Positions 38,451 through 63,860 of a stretch of 64,000 nucleotides of DNA are shown here, in pieces. The notes below the pieces were generated by a model that was given only the letters and a program-made list of their open reading frames with translations, was not told where the DNA came from and did no database searches. The stretch is from Closterium sp. NIES-65 (lineage: Eukaryota; Streptophyta; Zygnematophyceae; Desmidiales; Closteriaceae): NCBI GenBank assembly GCA_948144175.1, contig CANXME010000875.1, positions 496,001 through 560,000 on the forward strand. Reading direction: 5' to 3'. A program made the translations under genes and the position numbers. Position 1 is the first letter of the stretch; the number at the start of each line of letters is the position of its first letter.

Positions 38451-39967
38451 CGTCGTTGGCCTCAGGTCCACTGGTGATCCCCGATTGATCCTAGGGAAGG
38501 GTTACAGGCACATTGGCTTGGGGGGTTATGCATCGCACATTTACATTTGTTGCCTCGCAGGTTGCGAGTAGTGATTTCGCTGATGATGGTTTCCGGAGTG
38601 CTGCGCGAGCACATATCTGGGAATTGGCGCGCATGCTTCCGGCGAGTTGCATTGGCTATGAATTTGCGCGCAGGCAGCACACGAAATCTGCCTGCCTATG
38701 GTCAACAACAATCTCAGAAGCGGGCAGCTGGTGCCACATTGGCGAACTCACAGATCCCGCGTATAGAGTTAAGGTCTCGATAGATGGTACAAAAAGTCAT
38801 TGCACAGCTACGAAAGTAATTATTTTAGTATAGTATCAAAGTTCATAGGAAATTCATCAGTGCCTGCATTACGGAATTTGTGCATGAAAAAATGTTTTAT
38901 TGTTACAGATTTCAAGTACAAAATAATTGTAAAAAAATCATAGGATTTTTACGTCTGGTCATGCTATCACAGTGCTAGGTGAGTTATTATTTAGAAACAG
39001 CATGTTTAGGGAGAAACTTGCCACAATATTTACAGTTGCAATATTCCAACCTGGCACACCCTTATGACGAAAACTGGGTTCCTTGCTAGTCAACATTCGT
39101 TGGCGACAAACCTGGGGGTCGCTAAGGGCTACGATTGGTCTGTACGTGGATTTTCGTCCTGCCAGCTGTCGCGACCTGCGGTTTTTTCCCTGCCTGCGAA
39201 TTTTGCCTTTCCTGGTGTCGCATCACGCGATTTTCGCATAACATGTCGCATTGTACCTTTCGATATTTCGCGCGACACCGTCGTTGGTGCAGAGCGCCAA
39301 GATGATTCGTCCACAGTCGCACTCCCAACCCTTGCGACCTGGACAACACTGTGTGTGGGGACAAACACCACCTGCTTGCTCACCTTCTTCCAAAGACTCA
39401 TCCTCCAATGGCCCTGACTGCAGTAAAAGTTGTGATTGTTAACGTTACGCTGCACTTAGTTTCCTTCAACAGCCATAATTACCGCCCGTTTTAGAGTTCA
39501 TTGGCATCGTAATGGCGCCAGTTAGATCACCCGATCTGCCTCTGGTGCCTAGCGATAAGATATAACGAGACGGTGTTTCCATGGCTTGGCCAGCTAAAGA
39601 ACAGTTTTGTATCCGAATGCTTTTTAAATTTATAGATGCAACTACACATATTCCATAGCGCTCTTCAAGCCTACGTGCAGACCTTTCGTGGGGCGCCTAT
39701 TCTCAGCTTAGTGATTGTGTAGAGCTTGTTGGACTTATAATTTATCTTAATCTCCTGGCTTAGTTAGTTTCCAGGTCTATATCAATTCTCATATTGAACC
39801 TGTGCTTCATTGAGCTGCAGTTTTGCCTGCAAAGAGAGGCGAGAGAGCTGGTGGCGTTAGCGGTGACATTAGCATTCGAATCTGGCCTGAAAGGCCTGCA
39901 TTGAGGGTTCTCAGCTCTACTATATAGTTGGTTTCCATGGCGGCGGACGTAGATATTGTAAGGCATC
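38451..39967. other. No gene recognised; probable flank of the Plavaka transposon
   Basis: AT-richer than the retroelements around it. Short open stretches (38513-38833 and 39064-39417) have no recognisable family and no clear splice partners. If the transposase gene at 39968 belongs to a DNA transposon, the left terminal inverted repeat should be here, but I could not identify it. Confidence 0.4.
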
Positions 39968-41711
39968 ATGCTGTTCGTGTGCTGTAATAGGTCGTTCACA
40001 AGTGGGAGAGCATATGAGAACCATAGAAAGGCTTGCAGAAAACGACCACGTGAGCAGGAGGAGGTGGAAGATTTGACCGCGCATATAAGACGTAGACAGG
40101 CGGATCAGAGCCAGCAGAACTCAGGCTCAGCAACAGCACTGCCAGCAGACACGGTGAGGACAGATATAGCACCCAGGAGCGCTCAGTCAGAGCAAGCAGA
40201 TGAGATCCCAGAGTTGCCACGGTATGAATTTCCATCTGAGTTACCAGCAGGTGCACCGACGTTTGATATTGACAAAGCGTTTCTGAAGGTCGTCCACAGT
40301 TGCAATGGTGGCATGGGTTTGTCTGCTACGGATACCAACAACATTTTAGCACTGTTTTGCAGGCCTACAGCGGAGAGGCCCAGCTATACAAACAGAGCAG
40401 GCATGGATAAGTATGCCAAGTCATTGCTTGTGCAAATGACAGGAATAGAGGAGTCGGAGTCGGTAGATGTTAGTCACAACAGTAACCACGTCGCTATACT
40501 CTATCTAACATCACTCTCCAAGGCAGTAAAGTCGCTATTTTTGGAGTGTAAGAATCATGAGGGATTTGTCCTGTGGGCGAAACCAATTTACACAGCGGAC
40601 GGAAAGCAGCGTATTTACGCGGGACCAGAGACCGGGAACATGTGGATTGAAACACAATCGCTACTGCCTAGAGGTGCTATACTGGTGCCCGTGATACTAT
40701 ACAGCGATGCGACTAACCTCAGTACTGACGGACGAGTAGTTGGGCATCCGGTGTACATGACGCTGGGTAACATTACAGTCAAGAACAGATGGCAGCCGCA
40801 TGGCCATATCATGATTGCCATGCTGCCACCCTTAACTGGCGTGGATGCAAAAACCGAAGCAGGGAAGGAGACGCGCCGCGTGGTGTTTCAAAAAGCCATG
40901 GATCGCATCATGCAAGACTTCCGAGAGGCTTCTAAAAGGTTGGTAATTTGTACATTTGATCCATTTGCCACCTACTCTTTCCAAAGCAGTAGATTTTCAT
41001 CCCGTGGCAAAATCAGATGTAATGTCATGCGTGTTCCTCTGTTTTTAATCCCTCACCTACCTACACACTCCAAGAACGTGTTTAGAACGAACAACAACAC
41101 TCCCTTATACTGTACCTATGCTTTCGTTTTACCATCACACACACATTCGTGACAAGCCTACCCATCCCACATCCCACCCCTTTCAGTCAACCCCCTCTCC
41201 ATCACATTCTATCTTGCTTATCACACACATTACACTCCACACAAGAACATCATGCAGATAACCCCCTTCTTCCTCCTACCCCTCGTTCTCTCTCTCTTCT
41301 ACCACTTCTTAACTCATTAGTCCATCAGACACATGCCTTCCCCCTTCTCTCGCATGCTGAATCCGTACACCTTTTCCGTGCCCCACCCCTCGCTTTGTTT
41401 GGTACTCCACAAACAGTGGGATCATCATGCGTGACCCATTCGGTGAACGTCATGAGGTCTACCTAGCCTTATATGCCTACGTTGCAGACCAACCGGAGGC
41501 ATGTAAGGTGGCAGGCACTTTTGCAAGCCACCAAGCGCAATATCCGTGTCACAGGTGTCTAGTGCGAAGAGAGGACATAAGCAACATGGAGATTTCATCC
41601 GAGTACCGAACGGAGGCGGGTCAAGCGGAGAAGGTCGAAGAGTTACTTGCAATACCGACACTTACTGCGCGGAATGATGCCGCAAAAGCCATGAGCATCC
41701 ACCCAGTCAAG

Positions 41712-42406
41712 GTGAGGGAGGGAGACGAGATGACAGAGATGGGAGTGAGGAGGGATGAGAGAGAGGAAGAAGGTAGGATAGAGTTGAGAGTGAGGAGGGA
41801 TGAGAGGGAGGAAGAAGGGAGGATATAGATAGGAGTGAGGAGGCATTTACAGGGAGGAAGATGTGAGGACAGAGATGGGAGTGAGGAGGGATGAGATTGA
41901 GGAAGAAGCGAGGACAGAGATGGGAGTGAGGAGGGATGAGAGTGAGGAAGAAGGTAGGACGAGGACTAGAGAGAGAATGGATCAGAGGGAAGAAGGAAGG
42001 AGAGAGATGGGAGTGAAGAGGGAAGAGAGGGAGGAAGATTGGAGGAGAGAGATGGCAGTGAGGAGGGAAGAGAAGACGGAAGAAGGGAGGACAGAGATGG
42101 GAGTGAGGAGGGAAGCGAGGGAGGAAGAAGGGATGAGAGAGATGGGAGTGAGGAGGGAAGAGAGGGAGGAAGATTGGTGGAGAGAGATGGGAGTGAGGAG
42201 GGAAGAGAAGAAGAAAGAAGGGAGGACAGAGATGGGAGTGAGGAGGGATGAGAGGGAGGGAGATGGGAGGACAGAGATTTACAGCATCTCTTCACTGTCA
42301 CCCACGCCCTACTCAACTCCTATCCCTTTCAGTTTCCAGGCCTGTTCCCCTCTTCTGATATACCTTCCGCAACCCATCACTTTCCCCTCCCTTTGTTCCT
42401 CAACAG
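41712..42406 (+). repeat. Intron 2 with purine-rich minisatellite (opposite orientation to intron 3)
   Basis: From about 41715 to 42275, units of about 43-45 bp close to GAGATGGGAGTGAGGAGGG followed by ATGAGAGGGAGGAAGAAGG. This is the reverse complement of the intron 3 minisatellite, apart from an extra GA in GTGAGGAGGG. Roughly a dozen degenerate units. The intron then has a normal pyrimidine tract and CAACAG acceptor. Confidence 0.85.
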
Positions 42407-42846
42407 GCAGCAATATGGGGGTTGGCCTTGGGCGGAACGGATGTCGGCAACCCGTACAGGGCACTTCTTATCGAGATCATGCATGCTCTTGATCTTGGCA
42501 TCTTCATGCATATCATCTCCTGCATCAGAGCCATGCTAAAAAAGAGGAAGGAAACACACGTGCTGAGAGAGCTAGATTTTGTCCTGCAAACAATAGCACG
42601 TGATACTTGAATCAGTGGTTTCCGGCTACCGGGTGGAGAGAAGGGTGGTTACTTTGCAGGTGCTGCAAAGTTTCAGGCGTTTGAACACCGTGCCATCATG
42701 CAAGTGTGCACGATTGTCCTTGCCGGGCGTGTAGATAAAAAAATTGTGGATGTTGTAGCTGCATTTGTCGACCTCTACATGCTGGCCTCCAGGAGGTGGT
42801 ACCATACGGACAACACCCTCCAAGAACTTGACCAGGCAATCAAAAG

Positions 42847-45800
42847 GTACTCCGAGTTTCTGCCCTGCCTTCTCTCCCAATTGGTTTCTGTTCTCATTCC
42901 ACTCCGTGCCCACACCTTCCATCCATTTCTGCAATTCCTATCTCTCCCATATCGGTCTTACCTTTCTTTCTCTCTATTATCACATCTCAATCTAATCCCT
43001 ACCTTGTTCAATCTGATCTCTTAAAAAATCGGAACCTGTCACTATATCTATCTCACCACTTTTCAACCCCATCTGTTTCCTAGATTGTGCCTTGTCTCTG
43101 TCCCTCCTTCATCCTCCCTCTCATTCCTCCACTCCCATCTCTGTCCTCCCCTTTTCCTCTCTGTCCTCACTTCTTCCTCTCTCTCATCCCTCCACTCCCA
43201 TCTCTGTCCTCCCCTTTTCCTCTCTCTCATCCCTCCAATCCCATCTCTGTCCTCCCTTCTTCCTCTCTCTCATCCCTCCACTCCCATCTCTGTCCACCCT
43301 TCTTCCTCTCTCTCATCCCTCCACTCCCATCTCTGTCCTCCCTTCTTCCTCTCTCTCATCCCTCCACTCCCATCTCTCTCCTCCCTTCTTCCTCTCTCTC
43401 ATACCTCCACTCCCATCTCTGTCCTCCCCTTTTCCTCTCTCTCATCCCTCCAATCCCATCTCTGTCCTCCCTTCTTCCTCTCTCTCATCCCTCCACTCCC
43501 ATCTCTGTCCTCCCCTTTTCCTCTCTCTCATCCCTCCAATCCCATCTCTGTCCTCCCCTTTTCCTCTCTCTCATCCCTCCACTCCCATCTCTGTCCTCCC
43601 TTCTTCCTCTCTCTCATCCCTCCACTCCCATCTCTGTCCTCCCTTCTTCCTCTCTCTCATCCCTCCACTCCCATCTCTGTCCTCCCTTCTTCCTCTCTCT
43701 CATCCCTCCACTCCCATCTCTGTCCTCCCCTTTTCCTCTCTCTCATCCCTCCAATCCCATCTCTGTCCTCCCTTCTTCCTCTCTCTCATCCCTCCACTCC
43801 CATCTCTGTCCTCCCTTCTTCCTCTCTCTCATCCCTCCACTCCCATCTCTGTCCTCCCTTCTTCCTGTCTCTCATCCCTCCACTCCCATCTCTGTCCTCC
43901 CTTCTTCCTCTCTCTCATCCCTCCACTCCCATCTCTCTCCTCCCTTCTTCCTCTCTCTCATCCCTCCACTCCCATCTCTGTCCTCCCCTTTTCCTCTCTC
44001 TCATCCCTCCAATCCCATCTCTGTCCTCCCTTCTTCCTCTCTCTCATCCCTCCACTCCCATGTCTGTCCTCCCTTCTTCCTCTCTCTCATCCCTCCACTC
44101 CCATATCTGTCCTCCCCTTTTCCTCTCTCTCATCCCTCCAATCCCATCTCTGTCCTCCCTTCTTCCTCTCTCTCATCCCTCCACTCCCATCTCTGTCCAC
44201 CCTTCTTCCTCTCTCTCATCCCTCCACTCCCATCTCTGTCCTCCCTTCTTCCTCTCTCTCATCCCTCCACTCCCATCTCTCTCCTCCCTTCTTCCTCTCT
44301 CTCATCCCTCCACTCCCATCTCTGTCCTCCCCTTTTCCTCTCTCTCTCATCCCTCCAATCCCATCTCTGTCCTCCCTTCTTCCTCTCTCTCATCCCTCCA
44401 CTCCCATCTCTGTCCTCCCCTTTTCCTCTCTCTCATCCCTCCAATCCCATCTCTGTCCTCCCCTTTTCCTCTCTCTCATCCCTCCACTCCCATCTCTGTC
44501 CTCCCTTCTTCCTCTCTCTCATCCCTCCACTCCCATCTCTGTCCTCCCTTCTTCCTCTCTCTCATCCCTCCACTCCCATCTCTGTCCTCCCTTCTTCCTC
44601 TCTCTCATCCCTCCACTCCCATCTCTGTCCTCCCTTCTTCCTCTCTCTCATCCCTCCACTCCCATCTCTGTCCTCCCTTCTTCCTCTCTCTCATCCCTCC
44701 ACTCCCATCTCTGTCCTCCCTTCTTCCTCTCTCTCATCCCTCCACTCCCATCTCTCTCCTCCCTTCTTCCTCTCTCTCATCCCTCCACTCCCATCTCTGT
44801 CCTCCCCTTTTCCTCTCTCTCATCCCTCCAATCCCATCTCTGTCCTCCCTTCTTCCTCTCTCTCATCCCTCCACTCCCATCTCTGTCCTCCCTTCTTCCT
44901 CTCTCTCATCCCTCCACTCCCATCTCTGTCCTCCCCTTTTCCTCTCTCTCATCCCTCCAATCCCATCTCTGTCCTCCCTTCTTCCTCTCTCTCATCCCTC
45001 CACTCCCATCTCTGTCCTCCCTTCTTCCTCTCTCTCATCCCTCCACTCCCATCTCTGTCCTCCCTTCTTCCTCTCTCTCATCCCTCCACTCCCATCTCTC
45101 TCCTCCCTTCTTCCTCTCTCTCATCCCTCCACTCCCATCTCTGTCATCCCCTTTTCCTCTCTCTCATCCCTCCAATCCCATCTCTGTCCTCCCTTCTTCC
45201 TCTCTCTCATCCCTCCACTCCCATCTCTGTCCTCCCCTTTTCCTCTCTCTCATCCCTCCAATCCCATCTCTGTCCTCCCCTTTTCCTCTCTCTCGTCCCT
45301 CCAATCCCATCTCTGTCCTCCCTTCTTCCTCTCTCTCATCCCTCCACTCCCATCTCTGTCCTCCCTTCTTCCTCTCTCTCATCCCTCCACTCCCATATCT
45401 GTCCTCCCTTCTTCCTCTCTCTCATCCCTCCACTCCCATCTCTCTCCTCCCTTCTTCCTCTCTCTCATCCCTCCACTCCCATCTCTCTCCTCCATTCTTC
45501 CTCTCTCTCATCCCTCCACTCCCATCTCTGTCCTCCCTTCTTCCTCTCTCTCATCCCTCCACTCCCATCTCTGTCCTCCCTTCTTCCTCTCTCTCATCCC
45601 TCCACTCCCATCTCTCTCCTCCCTTCTTCCTCTCTCTCATCCCTCCACTCCCATCTCTGTCCTCCCCTTTTCCTCTCTCTCATCCCTCCAATCCCATCTC
45701 TGTCCTCCCTTCTTCCTCTCTCTCATCCCTCCACTCCCATCTCTGTCCTCCCTTCTTCCTCTCTCTCATCCCTCCACTCCCATCTCTCTCCTCCCTTCTT

Positions 45801-46066
45801 CCTCTCTCTCATCCCTCCACTCCCATCTCTGTCCTCCCCTTTTCCTCTCTCTCATCCCTCCAATCCGATCTCTGTCCTCCCTTCTTCCTCTCTCTCATCC
45901 CTCCACTCCCATCTCTGTCCTCCCTTCTTCCTTTCTCTCATCCCTCCACTCCCATCTCTGTCCTCTCTGTCCTCACACCCATCCCTGCCCTGCCTTTGTC
46001 CTCCCTCTCAACCCTTCTCACTCCCATCTCTCTCCTCCCTTTCTCCTCCCTCTCGTCTCTTGTCAG
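42847..46066 (+). repeat. Intron 3 with large pyrimidine-rich 43-bp minisatellite
   Basis: About 2.9 kb (roughly 43095-45975) of tandem 43-bp units, near 65 copies, with core TCATCCCTCCACTCCCATCT and spacer CTGTCCTCCCTTCTTCCTCTC. Variants are linked: units with CCCCTTTT are followed by CCAATCCC, while CCCTTCTT units are followed by CCACTCCC; some units have CTCTCTCC. As the unit is 43 bp and nearly free of A, all three plus-strand frames stay open for about 1,000 codons. These are not proteins: they read as the same 43-residue peptide cycling through frames, and the exons on both sides splice across it in phase. Confidence 0.9.
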
Positions 46067-47086
46067 ATTGATTCCAATGTTGAAGGATGTGTTTGGCGAA
46101 TTTCAAGCATCCGAATTCAACATCGGTAAGGTGCACGGCCTTGTGCATTTGGTCGATGACATTCGACGCTCCGGTGTCCCCGTTCACTACAACGCTAACA
46201 TGTTCGAGTTTTTTCACCAACCTCTCGTAAAGAAGGCATACCGTGCAAGCAACAAACGTGACGCTATGCCTCAAATCGTGAAGCATAGTGTCATGGCACG
46301 AATGCTGCAAACTCTTGATGACTCGGACCACAACAAGGAGGATTCGCACAATCGAATGGTCGCCCTACAAAAGGTAGATGATGCACGGTATAACATAGTC
46401 CTCTAAATTGCTTCTAACCATCTTCTCTCTGTGTTATAACAAGTGCACCCCAATCCCGACCGCAGGCCATGGAAACTGGGAGAAACACACTCGTGGCCAC
46501 GTCGCACAAGGTGAACTGGAGGGACTCTCGAGTTGTTGGCGGCGATCTTTGGCGGGAATACGAAACCGCAGCACCTGGCGACATGTTGCAGCTCCGCGCC
46601 TTGTTGTCACAACGACAAGCCGATGGCGTTGAATTAAGCAACGAAATCCAAGTCAGAAAGGGCTTGGCTATACCAGGTGATGAGGACTTCACAAAGTATT
46701 CTAGTCAAACGCACTATGTGCGGGCAACTCCAATGCTCATGAAGGCACCTTGGTTCAGTGATGTTGCTGTTTTGGGATCTGAGGTGGAAGTGTTACCGGA
46801 TGGCACGAGGAAGCCCAAGGATGTGATCTGGTATGCGCGGTTGCTGCTCTTGTTCGTAGTTGCACCAAAGGATCCAGCAGCAAAATTGGCGGACCAGAAG
46901 GAGCGTGCGTTCGTTAGGTTCTACCGCGTTACCGACGAGGTGCATGCATCCCATTGTCCTGTGCTAAGGTGGGAGGAACCGGATAATGAGTATCAGGTGT
47001 TGGAGATTGACAGTATTTTGAGGGTGGCTCATGTGGTTCCTATTGCTGGGGATAAGTTTGTGCTCAATAAGTTCAAATTCTACTGA

Positions 47087-48324
47087 AAAACTCCTGATCT
47101 TCACTGGTTTTTGTTTAATCGTATGCAGCCTTTCACAATCGTTGCACCCCTTTCATAATCAGTAGGAAACCCATGCGGACCAAATTAGCCCCATTCTTAG
47201 CAAACCATTCTGTGAAGAGCATTTGTTGTTCATTCAAATCTGTTTGTTTTCTCACGCGGACATGCGAGGATTTCAATGTCGTAACTGCAACACTGTTTTG
47301 CTAAACAATGGAAATGTTATGCCGTGCGAGGTGCGAATCATATGTTTACGCTGAAATTTTAAACTCTCGATAAACTAGGTCGTGGTGACGAAATCAGTTT
47401 CTTGATTGTTTTTTTTTTTTTTTACACAGCTCACTCGATTGTTAACTGCGGCACTGTTTGGCAGCACTATCACTTTCGTGTTGTCTCTTTGTGCCAGCAA
47501 GTTGGCAGTTGGTCTGTGGGCTTGGTACAGCGTACATTACAGTTTTGGCTGGATTTCTGCACCAAGACTTCCGGTGAGCTGTTGCCTTGCTGGCTAGCCG
47601 AGGCGCTGTGCGAAAAAAGAGGCGTGAAACTGTCGCAACACTCTGACTCTGTGCTTCGCAAAGTCGGCTCGGTTTGCCCTGCTGGCTAGTTGCGCGACAA
47701 AAGAGCCCACCATCGATGTGCAGCGTTGACAGTTGGATGTTTCTGACTGTTGACATGTATGTGCATCGATCAAAATGTGGGCAGGGTCAATGTATTTTGT
47801 TGCGTGATTGCACGGTGCGGAACTGCAGAACCTTCTAAACATTCTTCTGTTCGACTCAAAAAAGATGTCGAAAAAAACAAACGTGTGATGTATCTGCCCG
47901 TCCGATCTGATTGGCAGTTCGCTAAAGTCCAGAAACACCGATGTCTTCTGTCCACGTCATTCCGACCTCATTCCGTTTTGCTAAACCGAGTCAGAAAATA
48001 CACAACTTTCTGTACCGTTGGGGAAACCGCGCCATGCCCTTTTGGTCGCAAATTTGCCAGTAGCCACATTAACAGATACTTTCACGCACCGCTTGTGCTC
48101 ACAGTATCCCGCCTAAAAAGAATCACAACGGTAGAAGCCTACGGGTAGCCTTTACTTCCCTGCTCTGTACCATATGCCATGTGTGCTCCAGCTATTCCTA
48201 AAGTTAAGTGCTTTGGACGGGGTAATTATAAAAAAAAATAGTACTGCCCCACAGCCATCAATCCCGACCTTTCGTTTCCATCGCTGTCCCCACTCTCTCT
48301 CCACCAGCGGATCCTCGTCCCCTC
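47087..48324. other. Spacer between transposase and downstream gene
   Basis: No gene seen. Contains a run of 15 T at 47409-47423 and AT-rich, non-repetitive sequence. The transposase 3' UTR and the promoter of the next gene should lie here; no certain polyadenylation or TATA site can be named. Confidence 0.5.
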
Positions 48325-49899
48325 ATGGCTGAACTGCCTCGTGAGTTTCTGGAGGGTCGTGCCAAGAGGAAGAAGAACATCCCTGCTAGGTTTCGTAATT
48401 ATGAAACAGAGTACCCTGGTTCACGCGGGCGAGCAGTAGCACATGGAGAGTTAAGCAAAGCACAGAAAACTACTCAGGCAGGTACACCAGTCAACCCTGC
48501 TCCCTTGGTTGGTAGTCCTGCACCTGCCGCAAGCGGTCCTCCAACGGTTGCAAGTGATTCAGCCGTGGTAACTAATGGTGCTACCGTAATTGGATTTACT
48601 GCAACGAACGTCAGCGCAGAGAACGTGATAGGTTCTCAGGAGGACGGCTCTCACGACAACCTTGCCGCCTCAGGGTCCGACCTCGCCGTCGTCCGCACAG
48701 GTACTATCCCTTTTCAACCCACGAAAACTATTGGTTTTCTTCTTGTGTGGTTCACTTTACTAAACCGTTTAGTTGTTTGTTTTCTTTTTCAGGGACCCCA
48801 ATCTCCTCATACCGGAACGTGTATCATCGGGAAGCTAACACGTTCAACTCGCTAGAGGCCTCAATTCGCGTTACACTCGCCACCATTGTGGATACGCTCG
48901 ACAGCGTCAACGAGAGGCTTCGGCACACCAAAGAAACACAGCGAGCCCTCCTCAAAATCGTCACCGAACTCTCCAAAAACATCAATCTACCTAGCTGGGG
49001 GTCTGATGTTCAAGTCCAGGTGTGTTTAGTTAACTGATTCGTTAACCGTTCCGTTTTCGCATCAATGCTTTCCAACATCAAGCTAACAAACTCTTCCGTT
49101 GCTCTTTGCTGCAGGATAAGTTTGGCGAAGTGTTTGACACGGTGTTGAACGGTGCTAAGCTCGAGAATCGGAGGATCTATCCGTCCCCCGAAGAGTTCAA
49201 GGCCGTTTTGTCTGATGTGCTAGATGTGCAGGTCGAAGAGGCTGCTAGGTTGAACTCTGATTTTAGGAACAAAAATTGGGGCGATAAAATGAGAACTCTT
49301 TGCAATGGCAGGAGAGGGAAGCTTAGCACCAAATTGCGGCAGTGTGCATATGCTCTTCTCAAAGATCCTCTTGACAAAGTCGTCCCGAATGACGTCGACG
49401 CTCGACGGAACTACGCTACGAACTACCTGTGTGGTGAGTTACTGATGTGCTGATTTCACTATTTGTGACTACTCTAATTTTTTCCTTTTTGGTCGCTGCA
49501 AAGTTGTTTGGCCTGCCATGGCATGCTCTGGGTGAAAATCCCCTAGCTAGCCCAGCCTTTATCACCGCCGCCAGTGCGTGGTACAAGGAACCCCCCGAAG
49601 ATGTTGCGCTCACGATCGATCAAGTCTGCTACACCCTGTATGCGGTGAGTGGTTTGAACTGTTTATATATTAAATACAAAGCTCCTCTTCTGTACTGATC
49701 AACTCTTAGTGTTGTCCGCCAGGTTGAGAACAGCATGATCACAACCATGAGTAGTCTGCATTCGGAACAGTCATCAAACAAGCGGGAAATGGACATCAGG
49801 AAGGCCCAGATTGAGCGGTGGATTGACAGGGCCAATATTCCTCTTATAGCTGGTCATTATGATTTCGGTGAAGTGTGTGTCCTCAATTGGCGTAGGTAA
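48325..49899 (+). CDS. Hypothetical spliced gene next to the transposase
   Basis: Five exons inferred from GT-AG sites: 48325-48700, 48793-49019, 49115-49433, 49504-49644, 49723-49899. The start ATG is followed by a basic N-terminus (GRAKRKKNIPARFRNYE) and an Ala/Val/Thr-rich stretch. Exon 2 is helical and heptad-like (ATIVDTLDSVNERLRHTKE). Exon 3 is acidic/basic with DKFGEVFDTVLNG. Exon 4 holds LFGLPWHALGENP, and exon 5 ends VCVLNWRR. Junctions 1-2, 2-3 and 4-5 keep phase; the exon 3-4 junction is off by one base, so either the splice site differs or a one-base indel damages the gene. I do not recognise the family. Its position just after a transposase on the same strand suggests a transposon accessory gene; a host gene is the alternative. 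Confidence 0.55.
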
Positions 49900-50487
49900 A
49901 ATGTAATGCCTTTTTAATGATATTTTGATTTTTTAATCTAGCCGAATTTATTGCATATAGCGATTAGAAATTAGCATTTGAGAAATTGGTTTACGTGCGT
50001 GCGTAAATTGGTGTACCAAGTTTTGAGTATAACGGATGTATCAATTCTATGCCAATTTGAGTATAACGGATATATCTATTCCAAATTTGATTCCATAGTG
50101 TCGTATCTTTTGTGATTCTAAAGGGAGTCAACTTTTATCCGTTTTTAGACCCTAGTACAAATAATGAAATGTTACGAAATGACATGTGTAACAACATTCC
50201 ATCCAAACCCTGCTGACATGGCAACATTTCGCGTGACTCCCAGCAGTCTGCCCGTGGTTGGCGAAGCTCCAGCATTCTCGAACACTTCAAGCACACTGTG
50301 TTTCCATGCAATCGCTACCCAGTATTTCGCACCAACATCGAGAACCCAACTGTCAGGCACATTCGAACCTGACTTCCAGATATTGGCGGGAATACTCAGG
50401 AAAAGGTGCGATGTAGGCGCACTGGCCCGCTACTTAAATAAGCCCTTTTATCCCAATGGTCTAGTGGTTGGAATTCTGACAGCGTGC
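49900..50487. other. No gene recognised; left flank of element E
   Basis: AT-rich sequence with a short direct repeat (GAGTATAACGGAT at about 50026 and 50056). The right end of the Plavaka element may lie here but was not identified. The last five bases, CGTGC (50483-50487), are E's target duplication. An open stretch at 50164-50520 runs into E's LTR and is not supported as a gene. Confidence 0.45.
50483..50487. repeat. Target-site duplication of E, left copy (CGTGC)
   Basis: CGTGC directly before E's 5' LTR, matched by 57830-57834 directly after its 3' LTR. Confidence 0.9.
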
Positions 50488-59783: not shown

Positions 59784-62700
59784 ATGTCGTCGCACCTATT
59801 CGACGCCGTCGTCGCCCACAGCGATCCCGCCGCGCATCTTCCCGACCCCGCCTCCGCCCCACTCTCCCATCCCCGGACCTCGCCGCGTGCCGTGCCGCCG
59901 CCGCGCGAGGCGCACCACCTGCTCGTCTTGGAGGGCTCGCGCTTCACGTGCGTCAGCGCGCCGCTCTCGCTCTCGCTGCGCCTCTGCTTCCAAGACCACA
60001 GCGCCAGAGGTACCGCCGCCGCTGACCGCTCGGACCACCATCAGCACGCCGAGCAGCGCGCGCAACTGCTCGCACCGCCCGTTGACAGCGGTTCCCCCGA
60101 TATCTCTCCCGAAAGGTCGGGAAGCGAAACCTTGCGTGAGTCCACGGGGATAGGCCTTGGCGCAAGGCAGGAGGCGGAGGAGGCAGAGGAAGAAGCGGGG
60201 GATGCGTGCTGCGAGCGGGAGGGGATGCACGTGCACGCACACGTGCATCATGGCGACGCGAGCACCGAAGACGTGCTGCTCGAACCGGTGCGTGCTGCTC
60301 GAACCGGTGCGCGGTCCAGCCCACCCGTGAGGGAATGACGTCGCTGCTGCCTTGCCTCGCCGTCGCCCTTGCCCTTCCCATTCCCACCTTGCGCTTGCCA
60401 TTCCCACCTTGCGCTTGTCATTCCCCCCCTGCGCTTGCCATTCCCCCCCTGCGCTTGCCATTCCCCCCCTGCGCTTGCCATTCCCCCCCTGCGCTTGCCA
60501 TTCCCCCCCTGCGCTTGCCATTCCCCCCCTGCGCTTGCCATTCCCCGCTTGCCCTTCCCATCCCCCCGTCGTGTTTCCCATTCCCCCTTGCGCTTGCTAT
60601 TCAATGCCAAGTTTCTGCTAGCCTAGTCAACCACAATGCCCGTCCCTTCGCCTTCCCCCGTTATTGTCACACTCCACAGTGCCTGCACGAAGGTGTGCTG
60701 TCGCCCTGCCTGCGCCCCTCCCCCGCCCCCTCGCCGCGCCTCCCCTCTCTTTCCACCGCATTTGGCGGGGAGCGGGGGAATGACGCGGTGAGGAGAGAGG
60801 GGGAGGGGGTGAGGGGGGCAGTGACGGAGGGGCATGGCGGCGCAGAGGAGCAGGGCGAGGGGGGGTGGCACGTGCATGCGGAGGGGTGTGGGCATGGTCG
60901 CATAGCGCATGGCGACCACGTGGACTACCTCATGCCGCTCCTCGATGGCTCCTTCCTGCTGCACCACGCTCATCACCTGCCCCATGCGCACCACGCGCAT
61001 CACTCACCCCCCCATGCGCACCACGCGCATCACTCACTCCGCCATGTGCATGCAATGCGTGGTCAGCACGGGCATGGTGATGCGCACGGGCATGGTGATG
61101 CGCACGGGCATGGTGATGCGCACGGGCATGGTGATGCGCACGGGCATGGTGATGCGCACGGGCATGGTGATGCGCGCCATGTGCACGAGGAAGCACATGA
61201 TGGCCATTCTGGCGATCCTGCTCCCCTCGCCACCCATGCTCACTCCCATGCCCACGCTCATACCCATGCGCATGCCCATCCTAGTTCGGACTCTCCTCCC
61301 CATGCGGCAGCAAGCGCACATGGCCATGGCATGGCAGCAGGGCCATCCGTGAGCCATCCCGTGCAGCCCCATTCCCGTGGATCCCCACCGCCTTGCGCCT
61401 CCTCGCCGGCCTGTGGAAGCAGGTGCAGTGCTGCCAGCCACGGCAGCACCGCGCATGTTGCGCACTCTGCCAGCACCACTGCCCCGCACACTCACCCCGC
61501 TGAGGCGCACAGGCATGACGCGGCGGCAAGCACATGCGGTTACCACGTGCACGAGCACGGGCGGCTGGTGAGGATCGGCGCTGCCACGGGGCTGCTGAGG
61601 CGGCGCGTGGGCAAGCAGCGTGTGGAGGTGTTTGACTACGTGCGCCATGCTCCCTCCCCCACCCTCACACCCACATGTGCTCGCACCTGTGGCAGTGCGG
61701 CAGCGGGATGCTGCTCTGATGCCATCTGCTCCTACACTCGGTTGCCGTCCCGTGATGAATGTGATTATATGGAGGGCAACGAAAGAGCAGTACAGATGGG
61801 GATGAAGCGGCGTGATGGTGGAGCGGAGGAGCAGGCAGGTCCGTGTGGGGAAGGTGCATCTGCACCTCCACCTGCCGGCTCTGCTGCAGCTGCAGCGAGT
61901 CTGCTTGACGCTGACGTGGCACAGGTGGTGAAGAGTGAAAGGGTGCAGGCAAAAGCAGCTTCTCTGATTGGCTGTCATACGCCGATGGCAGTGATGGCAC
62001 GTGAAGAGCAGCCCCGTGGCAGTGAACAGTCCACAGGCTGTACGCTTCATGAGAAAGACGATCATGGCTGCTGCAGCAGCGGCCATCACAGCAGGCACAG
62101 TCACACTCACGCTTGCATCACCAGCCATGATGCTGGCAGCGCTGATGGCGTTGAAACCAGCGAGGCAGCAGTGGGAGGGGCGATGTGGTGTAGCGGGCAG
62201 GGCTGCTGCACTCATGCAGAGGGCACTGGGAGTGCAGGCGAGATGGTGGTGCTGGTGGGTGGGGGCGACAGGGAGGGGGCTGGAGAGGAGACAGAGGTAG
62301 TGGGCGAGTGGATGGCCAGAAAGCCGTCTCCATTCGTCTGGTGGTCAACCACCGCGTGCAAGCGAGCAATCACTGCCGTGGCCAGCGCAGCAACCAAGGC
62401 CTTCCAAGGTCCCCAGCCGCACAGCAATGCTTCCGCCCCCGCTGCTGCCATTCCTGGTGCTGGTGGGGCAGTGGTGACGTCACGGGTGGACGTGTTGGGG
62501 CTGTGCTGCGAAGCGGAGGTGGCGGTGGTGCAGCGAGTGGTGGAGGCGCTGCCCGGCGTGCTGCACGTCGCCGTCTCCACGCCCACCAGGACGGCCCTCG
62601 TGCGCCATGACGCCTCCATCACCTCCACTGCTGACATCGGTGAGTGCGTGCTGCATGGGTGCGGTGAGTGCATGCTGCATGGGTGCGGTGAGTGCCGAGG

Positions 62701-63860
62701 GTGAGTGGAAGTCGTGTTGGTCGAGACCAACGGTGAGGTGAGGCAACCATGCATTGCATCCCCCACACGTCCTCTCCTGCGGTTGCGACTTCCCTCTCAA
62801 GCACGCAGCCCCAACCCCTCCTCTCCTCTCCTCCCACTCCCTCCCCCGCCTCCCCTCGTTTCCTCCTCTCCTGGCGTCCCACCAGTGGCGGCGCTGAACG
62901 ATGCGCATCTGAATGCCAGCGAGCAGCAGAGGGGGCGAGTGCGCATGGCGTCGTCGCTGCCGTCGCCCTCCACGCTGCTGTCGGGCGCGCTGCTGCTCGT
63001 CTCCCTCTTCCACTACCTCCTCCCCCCCCTCCAGTTTGTCGCCCTCGCCTCCATCGCCGCCGGCCTGCCACCCATTCTGCTCAGCAGCCTCGCTGCGCTG
63101 AGGAGGTTCATACTCGATATAAACACACTCATGGTCATTGCAGGTGAGCTCTGGTAACAAACAGCCATCAGGCTGTGCTTGTATTCCTGGCTTGGAGGCT
63201 CACAGGGGTCAGAGGAGGCACGGGGGATTTGAGAGGCGCCTCTGTGTGTGTGGCGCATCCTTTCCCTGCAAGTGTTCCTGCCTAGCGAGTGTCCATGCCT
63301 ATAAGTGAGTCCTTCCGTCTCTGCTTAGCGTCCCTTCTGAAGCATGTCCATGCATAGAAGTGTGTGTGCGTTCGAGTCCCTTGTGTGAGAGCGCACACAT
63401 GCCATGTCGCTCCCGCTTATCCTGCCTCATCTCTCCCCGTCCCCCACCGGCCTCTCATGGGCTCCCAGTGGGCGGCGCAATAGCCATTGGGGAGTATGTG
63501 GAGGGCGCGTCTGTGGTCTTCCTCTTTTCCCTCGCCCACTTCCTTGAAGCGCGCTCCACCCATAAGGTGGGCTGCACGCATCAGCTGGGCTGCACCGATA
63601 CATGCCAAACTTCCCCTTCCCCTCCCTTTGCATCCTTCCCATTTCCCACTTGCTCGCTCCCTCCCCCTTCTATCCGCACTCCCCTTTCCTTTCCTCCCTC
63701 GCGCATGTCCCCTCTCGCCCCATGCCCCCCAATGACGCATCGACCGCATGCCAACAATCCCTCCGCTGCCCATACGTGCCCCTCTCAGGCGCGGGTGGCC
63801 ATCCAGTCACTCATCGACCGCGCCCCACAGACGGCTGAGCTGGCCGCCACAGGCGAGCAG
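59784..63860 (+). CDS. Plant-type Zn/Cd P1B-ATPase with His-rich N-terminal extension, 5' part
   Basis: Five exons with GT-AG borders and matching phases: 59784-60287, 60680-62639, 62886-63143, 63469-63566, 63789-63860; the gene runs past the window end. The coded part is 964 residues. Residues 1-230 are unrecognised. Residues about 230-390 are extremely His-rich, with CGHGRIAHGDHVDYL and six HGHGDA units. A further Cys/His-rich stretch leads to an HMA domain (about 770-823) that starts DVLGLCCEAEV, the CC form typical of plant HMA2/3/4. Then come membrane helices (SGALLLVSLFHYLLPP; FVALASIAAGLPPILLSS; LDINTLMVIA onto VGGAIAIGEYVEGASVVFLF) and the start of the actuator domain (ARVAIQSLIDRAPQTAELAATGEQ). 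The CPC metal site, the phosphorylated DKTG and the ATP-binding domain lie outside. It is expected to export or sequester Zn/Cd at the plasma membrane or vacuole. The exon 1 start is the least certain part; exon 1 could also be a separate small gene. Confidence 0.85.
60378..60600 (+). repeat. 20-bp minisatellite in intron 1 of the P1B-ATPase gene
   Basis: About eleven units close to CATTCCCCCCCTGCGCTTGC, the last few degenerate. They lie between the donor at 60288 and the acceptor at 60679. The reading frame stays open through the array, so a retained-intron protein is not excluded by stops in that frame. Confidence 0.8.
60960..61180 (+). repeat. Coding repeats for His clusters in the ATPase
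   Basis: Two blocks: CCCCATGCGCACCACGCGCA units (60980-61040), translated as HAHHAHHS, and six 18-bp units CACGGGCATGGTGATGCG (61067-61174), translated as HGHGDA. They are expected to bind Zn2+ or related ions in a flexible cytosolic tail. Confidence 0.85.

Follow-up and report, generated by a model that had tools for sequence, protein, structure and literature searches.

How did one minisatellite come to lie in opposite orientations in two neighbouring introns of a single transposase gene, and what might this arrangement do to the RNA made from it? The locus lies in a 64,000-nt stretch of a contig of the zygnematophycean alga Closterium sp. NIES-65, which we refer to as the window and number from its first base. 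A first-pass annotation had noticed a purine-rich array in intron 2 and a complementary pyrimidine-rich array in intron 3, and had proposed that the two could pair around the exon between them. We examined the gene and its copies, the relation of the two arrays, and the pairing predicted for the transcript.

The gene, annotated earlier as a transposase, was of the Plavaka type, as PF18759 matched it with 77.7 and 34.1 bits against a curated cut-off of 26.3. Pieces of exons 3, 4 and 5, each searched alone, gave no Pfam match. Five exons joined through GT-AG introns gave one continuous frame save for one TGA in exon 3, and inspection of the translation by eye showed CHRC within exon 2 and HGLVH within exon 4 (Table 1). 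With this gene model the earlier statement that the length of exon 3 is not a multiple of three stands. The stop codon reported in that exon is indeed present, but it is missing at this position from the 16 other family A copies and therefore falls outside the repeat arrangement. Reading the intron 2 array as coding sequence was rejected: the frame from exon 2 remained open for 38 codons and then met a stop in all seven copies inspected, and sister copies have an intron at this place.

The left end of the element was placed where homology with the copy on C1934 begins (38532) and the right end where homology stops in four copies, which count as one breakpoint because all have one common downstream flank. 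The first 12 bases of the termini agree with one mismatch, and both ends fit CA..TG, with A in place of the first C in the C1934 copy. Since CATCG..CGATG is one base off the PlavakaB termini CATCA..TGATG, we did not file the element as PlavakaB. A 2-3 bp target-site duplication, as in PlavakaA and PlavakaB, was absent from the window copy, the sole copy with both ends compared, where the flanks are ATG and TAG. In the excerpts of PMC12730594 available, Plavaka belongs to the CMCT group, its termini are mostly CA..TG and its target-site duplications measure 2-3 bp; the element here likewise combines a PF18759 match with termini that start with CA and end with TG. The families of that account are fungal, and intron minisatellites were not seen in its excerpts. 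PF18759 had at least 133 matches in the host genome, where 123 of 1397 first-look candidates were scored, and the 14 control genomes gave none.

Table 1. Features of the transposon copy in the window (window positions).
Feature	Position	Strand	Basis or remark
Plavaka-type DNA transposon (family A)	38531..50413	+	termini CATCGCAC...GTGCGATG
Exon 1 of transposase, as drawn	39962..40938	+	PF18759 E 1.2e-21 for frame 39962-41149; phase fits exon 2
Exon 2	41417..41711	+	PF18759 E 2.2e-8 for 41361-41710; boundary kept in sister copies
Intron 2, 695 nt	41712..42406	+	GT-AG, frame open over junction; homologous intron of family B is 183 nt
Purine-rich minisatellite, 12.6 x 45 nt	41714..42278	+	TRF, alignment, copy comparison
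Exon 3, 440 nt	42407..42846	+	in-frame TGA at 42608, private to window copy
Intron 3, 3220 nt	42847..46066	+	GT-AG; 1090-4046 nt across other copies
Pyrimidine-rich minisatellite, ~65 x 43 nt, reverse complement of intron 2 unit	43095..46066	+	
Exon 4	46067..46373	+	open frame; 77% nt identity to family B
Exon 5 with normal stop codon	46466..47086	+	open frame

TRF resolved the intron 2 array with 81% matches and the intron 3 array, at 43158-45965, as 65.3 copies with 95% matches. Splitting the whole intron 3 minisatellite gave 64 units, with degenerate units at both edges and a 45-nt spacing at the 3' edge. The earlier placement of both arrays within introns 2 and 3 holds, but their bounds shift: the intron 2 array starts at the base that follows the donor GT, and that of intron 3 reaches the acceptor at 46066. 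After reverse complementation of one, the two consensus units are one substitution and a 2-nt gap apart. In a BLAST alignment of 571 columns, the entire intron 2 array matched the minus strand of its intron 3 counterpart at 83.9% identity (E 2e-149); the presence of such an alignment had been named as a check. The reverse-complement local alignment of the arrays scored 653, compared with maxima of 275 for dinucleotide shuffles of the intron 2 array and 401 for tandem arrays of shuffled units (n=200 each), and with a score of only 12 on the same strand. Purines make up 88% of the intron 2 array and 10% of the intron 3 array. As wholes, introns 2 and 3 also showed a same-strand excess (39 vs 19 for shuffles in the window copy, 27 vs 22 in copy L019), probably from the pyrimidine-rich tail of intron 2. 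Within the window copy, no other combination of introns (1-2, 1-3, 1-4, 2-4, 3-4) exceeded the maximum of 30 shuffles, and one equalled it. The tandem-repeat scan, BLAST and the scores above shuffles thus bear out the proposal of one minisatellite in opposite orientations in neighbouring introns.

We next turned to other copies in the 874-Mb host genome. From 40 scored candidates, a 601-base query around exon 3 yielded 17 places at 98-100% identity, the window among them, together with more remote relatives at 72-76%. With up to three mismatches allowed, a 30-nt core of the unit matched the genome 190 times in forward and 411 times in reverse orientation, whereas a reversed control pattern gave no match. 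The 17 copies hold 165 forward and 411 reverse matches. The remaining 25 lie, all in one orientation, in a truncated 18th copy on C2325 that was found through exons 4 and 5 and gave no match to exon 3 or intron 2 within the 5 kb fetched. All 601 matches therefore fall within 18 copies of one transposon family, with none elsewhere at this threshold, more diverged units being outside the reach of the search. Both arrays, in opposite orientation, were present in 17/17 family A copies with both introns, spread over nine contigs including that of the window; conservation in other copies had been named as a further check.

Across these copies the intron 2 array, the more diverged of the two, is nearly constant (intron length 692-695 nt in 16 copies and 658 nt in one), and that of intron 3 is a variable-number minisatellite of 17 to 87 units. 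Intron 3 falls into length classes of 1090-1091 nt (nine copies), 1561 nt (five), 2769, 3220 and 4046 nt (one each), with TRF counts of 17.3, 28.3, 57.3, 65.3 and 87.3 units, respectively. The common fraction of the five counts is what would be expected from gain and loss of whole units between fixed edges. The five length classes are a safer number than 17, as the copies do not represent 17 independent insertions: four copies of the 1561-nt class have one downstream flank in common, and the 1091-nt class recurs in similar settings on C1955, C2317 and C587. The origin is hence narrowed to one repeat in one transposon lineage, present as two opposite arrays of which one is variable in number; it is an inverted duplication inside that lineage. 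Compared with the exons of the window copy, 16/17 family A copies carry a stop, a frameshift or a missing part and one shows none (missing parts in exon 1 are relative to that exon as drawn), so most copies could hardly make transposase.

The edges of the intron 3 array retain some information about its history. In five copies, one per length class, the 3' edge scored 107-117 with the intron 2 unit against 83-92 with the 43-nt unit; it has the 45-nt spacing and is nearly identical among the five. The 5' edge leans to the 43-nt unit by 5 to 12 points. While not settled, this supports an ancestral unit of 45 nt that persists in intron 2 and in the 3' edge of the intron 3 array, and from which a 43-nt derivative would have been amplified within intron 3.

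Eleven other Plavaka copies were fetched, all of which lacked the family A unit. In family B (L025, L026 and L027; ~75% exon 3 identity), intron 2 is short and array-free and intron 3 carries an unrelated array with a 92-nt unit; a 31-nt array is also present in intron 1 of L026. In family C (L034 and L035, with L038 assigned from its intron 1 repeat), intron 1 bears a 21-nt array. In L034 and L035, intron 2 holds a same-strand array related to that of intron 1 (scores 134 and 137 against null maxima of 60 and 67), and intron 3 a 31-nt array of 4.3 and 31.3 copies. A 15-nt array occurs in the first intron of L037, and for L028, L036, L039 and L040 TRF detected no array in the introns recovered from the exon 1 to exon 4 part of the gene. 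Opposite-strand sharing between introns was seen in 0/9 sister copies tested, three of them with shuffle controls; L038 yielded one intron only, and L028 entered the tandem-repeat scan alone. In L026, L034 and L035 it never exceeded shuffles (30 per intron pair). Scores read without a control were 16 for introns 2 and 3 of L025, L026 and L027, the sole pair compared in L025 and L027, and 13 to 24 for L036, L037, L039 and L040. For some family B and C introns the cut points missed the splice sites by a few or somewhat more bases. Complementarity among introns was thus seen in family A alone and is not general to the Plavaka transposase gene, whereas intron minisatellites recur in some Plavaka genes.

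To judge what the arrangement could mean for RNA, we used equilibrium predictions of pairing. For five copies, RNAduplex predicted 494-498 pairs between the intron 2 array and a 700-nt stretch of its intron 3 counterpart, with energies of -903 to -934 kcal/mol, compared with -654 +/- 11 kcal/mol (minimum -691) for 20 shuffles of the window intron 2 array. Most of this energy would come from composition alone and the remainder from the common unit. Folded singly, the window arrays had almost no self-structure (-6.7 and 0.0 kcal/mol), and introns 2 and 3 of family B gave -41 to -45 kcal/mol from a shorter intron 2. When 150-nt segments of the intron 2 array were paired with intron 3, the head of that intron, which has no array, gave -125 and -137 kcal/mol and array windows about -225 to -264, with no clear preference for any one place along the intron 3 array. 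The predicted fold of copy L010, covering exon 2 through the beginning of exon 4 (2530 nt), contained 502 intron 2:intron 3 pairs, which span the third to the 564th nt of intron 2, with the outermost partner 60 nt before the end of intron 3. In this fold the GT of the intron 2 donor pairs upstream, and the acceptor of intron 3 stays unpaired. The two inner splice sites, namely the acceptor of intron 2 and the donor of intron 3, are both engaged in local pairs, so that their exposure is unsupported. As in circRNA-type intron pairs, complementary sequences lie in both introns flanking exon 3. The first-pass suggestion that introns 2 and 3 could pair over hundreds of bases around this exon agrees with these predictions.

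The overall explanation that we consider reasonably probable joins these observations as follows. A minisatellite private to one Plavaka lineage would have been copied, in inverted orientation, between neighbouring transposase introns, perhaps through template switching or fold-back repair within one element, and the element with its inverted arrays would then have spread via transposition and segmental duplication. Where intron 2 is still present while intron 3 is transcribed, the introns may pair over ~500 bp from beside the intron 2 donor and enclose exon 3. Such pairing would be expected to reduce linear splicing of transposase transcripts and to give rise to dsRNA and to some circles of exon 3 or mRNA that skips it, which we regard as by-products and not as a selected function. 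We infer these RNA consequences (circles, skipping, siRNA) from modelled pairing, and they form a testable prediction.

A substantial but lesser possibility is that the repeat is neutral and without RNA effect, either because the element is silent or because intron 2 is gone before the intron 3 array is made; its removal before transcription of that array would prevent pairing. Divergence is consistent with this: among seven representative copies the intron 2 array differs on average by 1.25%, compared with 0.92% in exons 2 and 3 (six copies), 0.93% in intron 1 and 1.26% in the intron 3 head, while the last 100 nt of intron 3, the intron 2 tail and the last 185 nt of exon 1 differ by 1.33%, 2.6% and 2.3%. 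The array diverges at the pace of its neighbours, and there is no sign of constraint on the arrays. The existence of sister Plavaka copies without complementarity and the lesions in 16/17 family A copies also point towards neutrality. The predicted duplex, on the other hand, lies far beyond shuffles, and the arrays have no competing self-structure, both of which count against this reading.

We think it unlikely that the arrays are kept by selection since their hairpin limits transposase through a retained intron 2, an exon 3 circle or skipping, or siRNA. The fuller form of this proposal, a self-limiting transposon whose variable intron 3 array pairs with the intron 2 copy and turns transcripts into circles, siRNA or skipped, frameshifted mRNA to a degree set by array length, seems to us equally improbable. 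Selection on the hairpin would account for the presence of both arrays in every copy with both introns, for predicted pairing that begins beside the intron 2 donor (one copy folded), and for the frameshift that skipping of a 440-nt exon would cause. However, copies this similar (0.9 to 2.6% divergence by region) would be expected to retain both arrays without selection, so that retention is not evidence of function. The arrays also show no concerted evolution, as their unit lengths differ and identity between them is 84%, and the arrangement is absent from 9/9 sister copies tested. As a separate candidate sign of selection, we considered that AG does not occur in intron 3 from nt 241 to the acceptor in 17/17 copies. 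In the five copies counted, GA and GG are likewise missing or almost missing, and base composition explains the pattern.

Two independent captures of a genome-dispersed minisatellite are very improbable: some other Plavaka genes do have intronic minisatellites, and tandem repeats abound in the window, but every unit-core match at up to three mismatches in 30 nt lies inside this element family. A false inversion by the assembly can be set aside almost entirely, for although long arrays are hard to assemble and intron 3 lengths could be affected, the opposite orientation recurs in 17 copies, nine contigs and five length classes.

Two known systems bear comparison with the inverted duplication favoured here. 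In mammals, according to the excerpts of PMC8516420 available, complementary young repeats in flanking introns promote back-splicing. The arrays resemble those circRNA pairs in being complementary repeats around an exon, young and lineage-specific; they differ in that the mammalian pairs are dispersed transposons in introns, whereas here a tandem minisatellite lies in the transposon's own gene, with ~500 bp of predicted pairing in many registers. Tetris, a foldback element of Drosophila virilis, is likewise indicated, in the excerpted account of PMC4079207, to be a DNA transposon linked to internal tandem repeats and an inverted structure. By the title of that account Tetris supplied a satellite, whereas both arrays here are intronic and the unit core, at the search threshold used, was not found outside the element. 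Among the matches listed from the open-licence literature, as excerpted, we found no description of paired inverted intron minisatellites in a transposase gene.

For the Plavaka genes of this alga, the unrelated units at homologous positions (intron 3 of families A, B and C) suggest that the introns of some of them gained minisatellites repeatedly. Family A offers a natural series of copies of one gene, in which one arm of the predicted duplex comprises anywhere between 17 and 87 units and the other is nearly constant. Such a series would allow tests, within one genome, of how the length of the duplex affects splicing, circular RNA and silencing.

Plavaka elements are abundant in the 874-Mb host genome, in which at least 133 matches were found when 123 of 1397 first-look candidates were scored, and several of the matches among these 123 carried long open frames. 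Copies of family A, the Plavaka-type transposon present in the window, were arranged on three contigs as inverted pairs spaced by approximately 14.2 kb, and on C1955 the pair occurred a second time approximately 66 kb beyond the first. One member of a pair comprised exons 2 to 5 together with a shortened exon 1, and its partner was truncated within exon 4.

Inverted pairs of family A copies in the host genome (strand in brackets)
Contig	First copy	Second copy
C1955	153970 (+)	168149 (-)
C1955	219954 (+)	234146 (-)
C2317	97365 (+)	111558 (-)
C587	69272 (+)	83449 (-)

Within the window transposon, open frames located 3' of the transposase (48232-49450) may represent an additional gene carried by the transposon; three pieces of them tested against Pfam gave no match. 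A further frame in the window (60140-62701) combined histidine-rich repeats with a heavy-metal-associated domain (PF00403), a make-up resembling that of plant zinc/cadmium pumps.

Intronic arrays were also observed in sister Plavaka copies. In family C, L034 and L035 had a related 21-nt minisatellite common to introns 1 and 2 on the same strand, and a 31-nt array in intron 3 that differed in copy number (4.3 versus 31.3, respectively). In L037, a further sister copy, the intron between exons 1 and 2 showed same-strand similarity to that between exons 4 and 5 (score 164, raw and without shuffle control). Intron 1 of the family B copy L026 contained a 31-nt array of approximately 40 copies (756-1967, as oriented for analysis). 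A 14-bp palindrome, read by eye, lies at the unit junction of this array and would allow its RNA to fold into consecutive hairpins.
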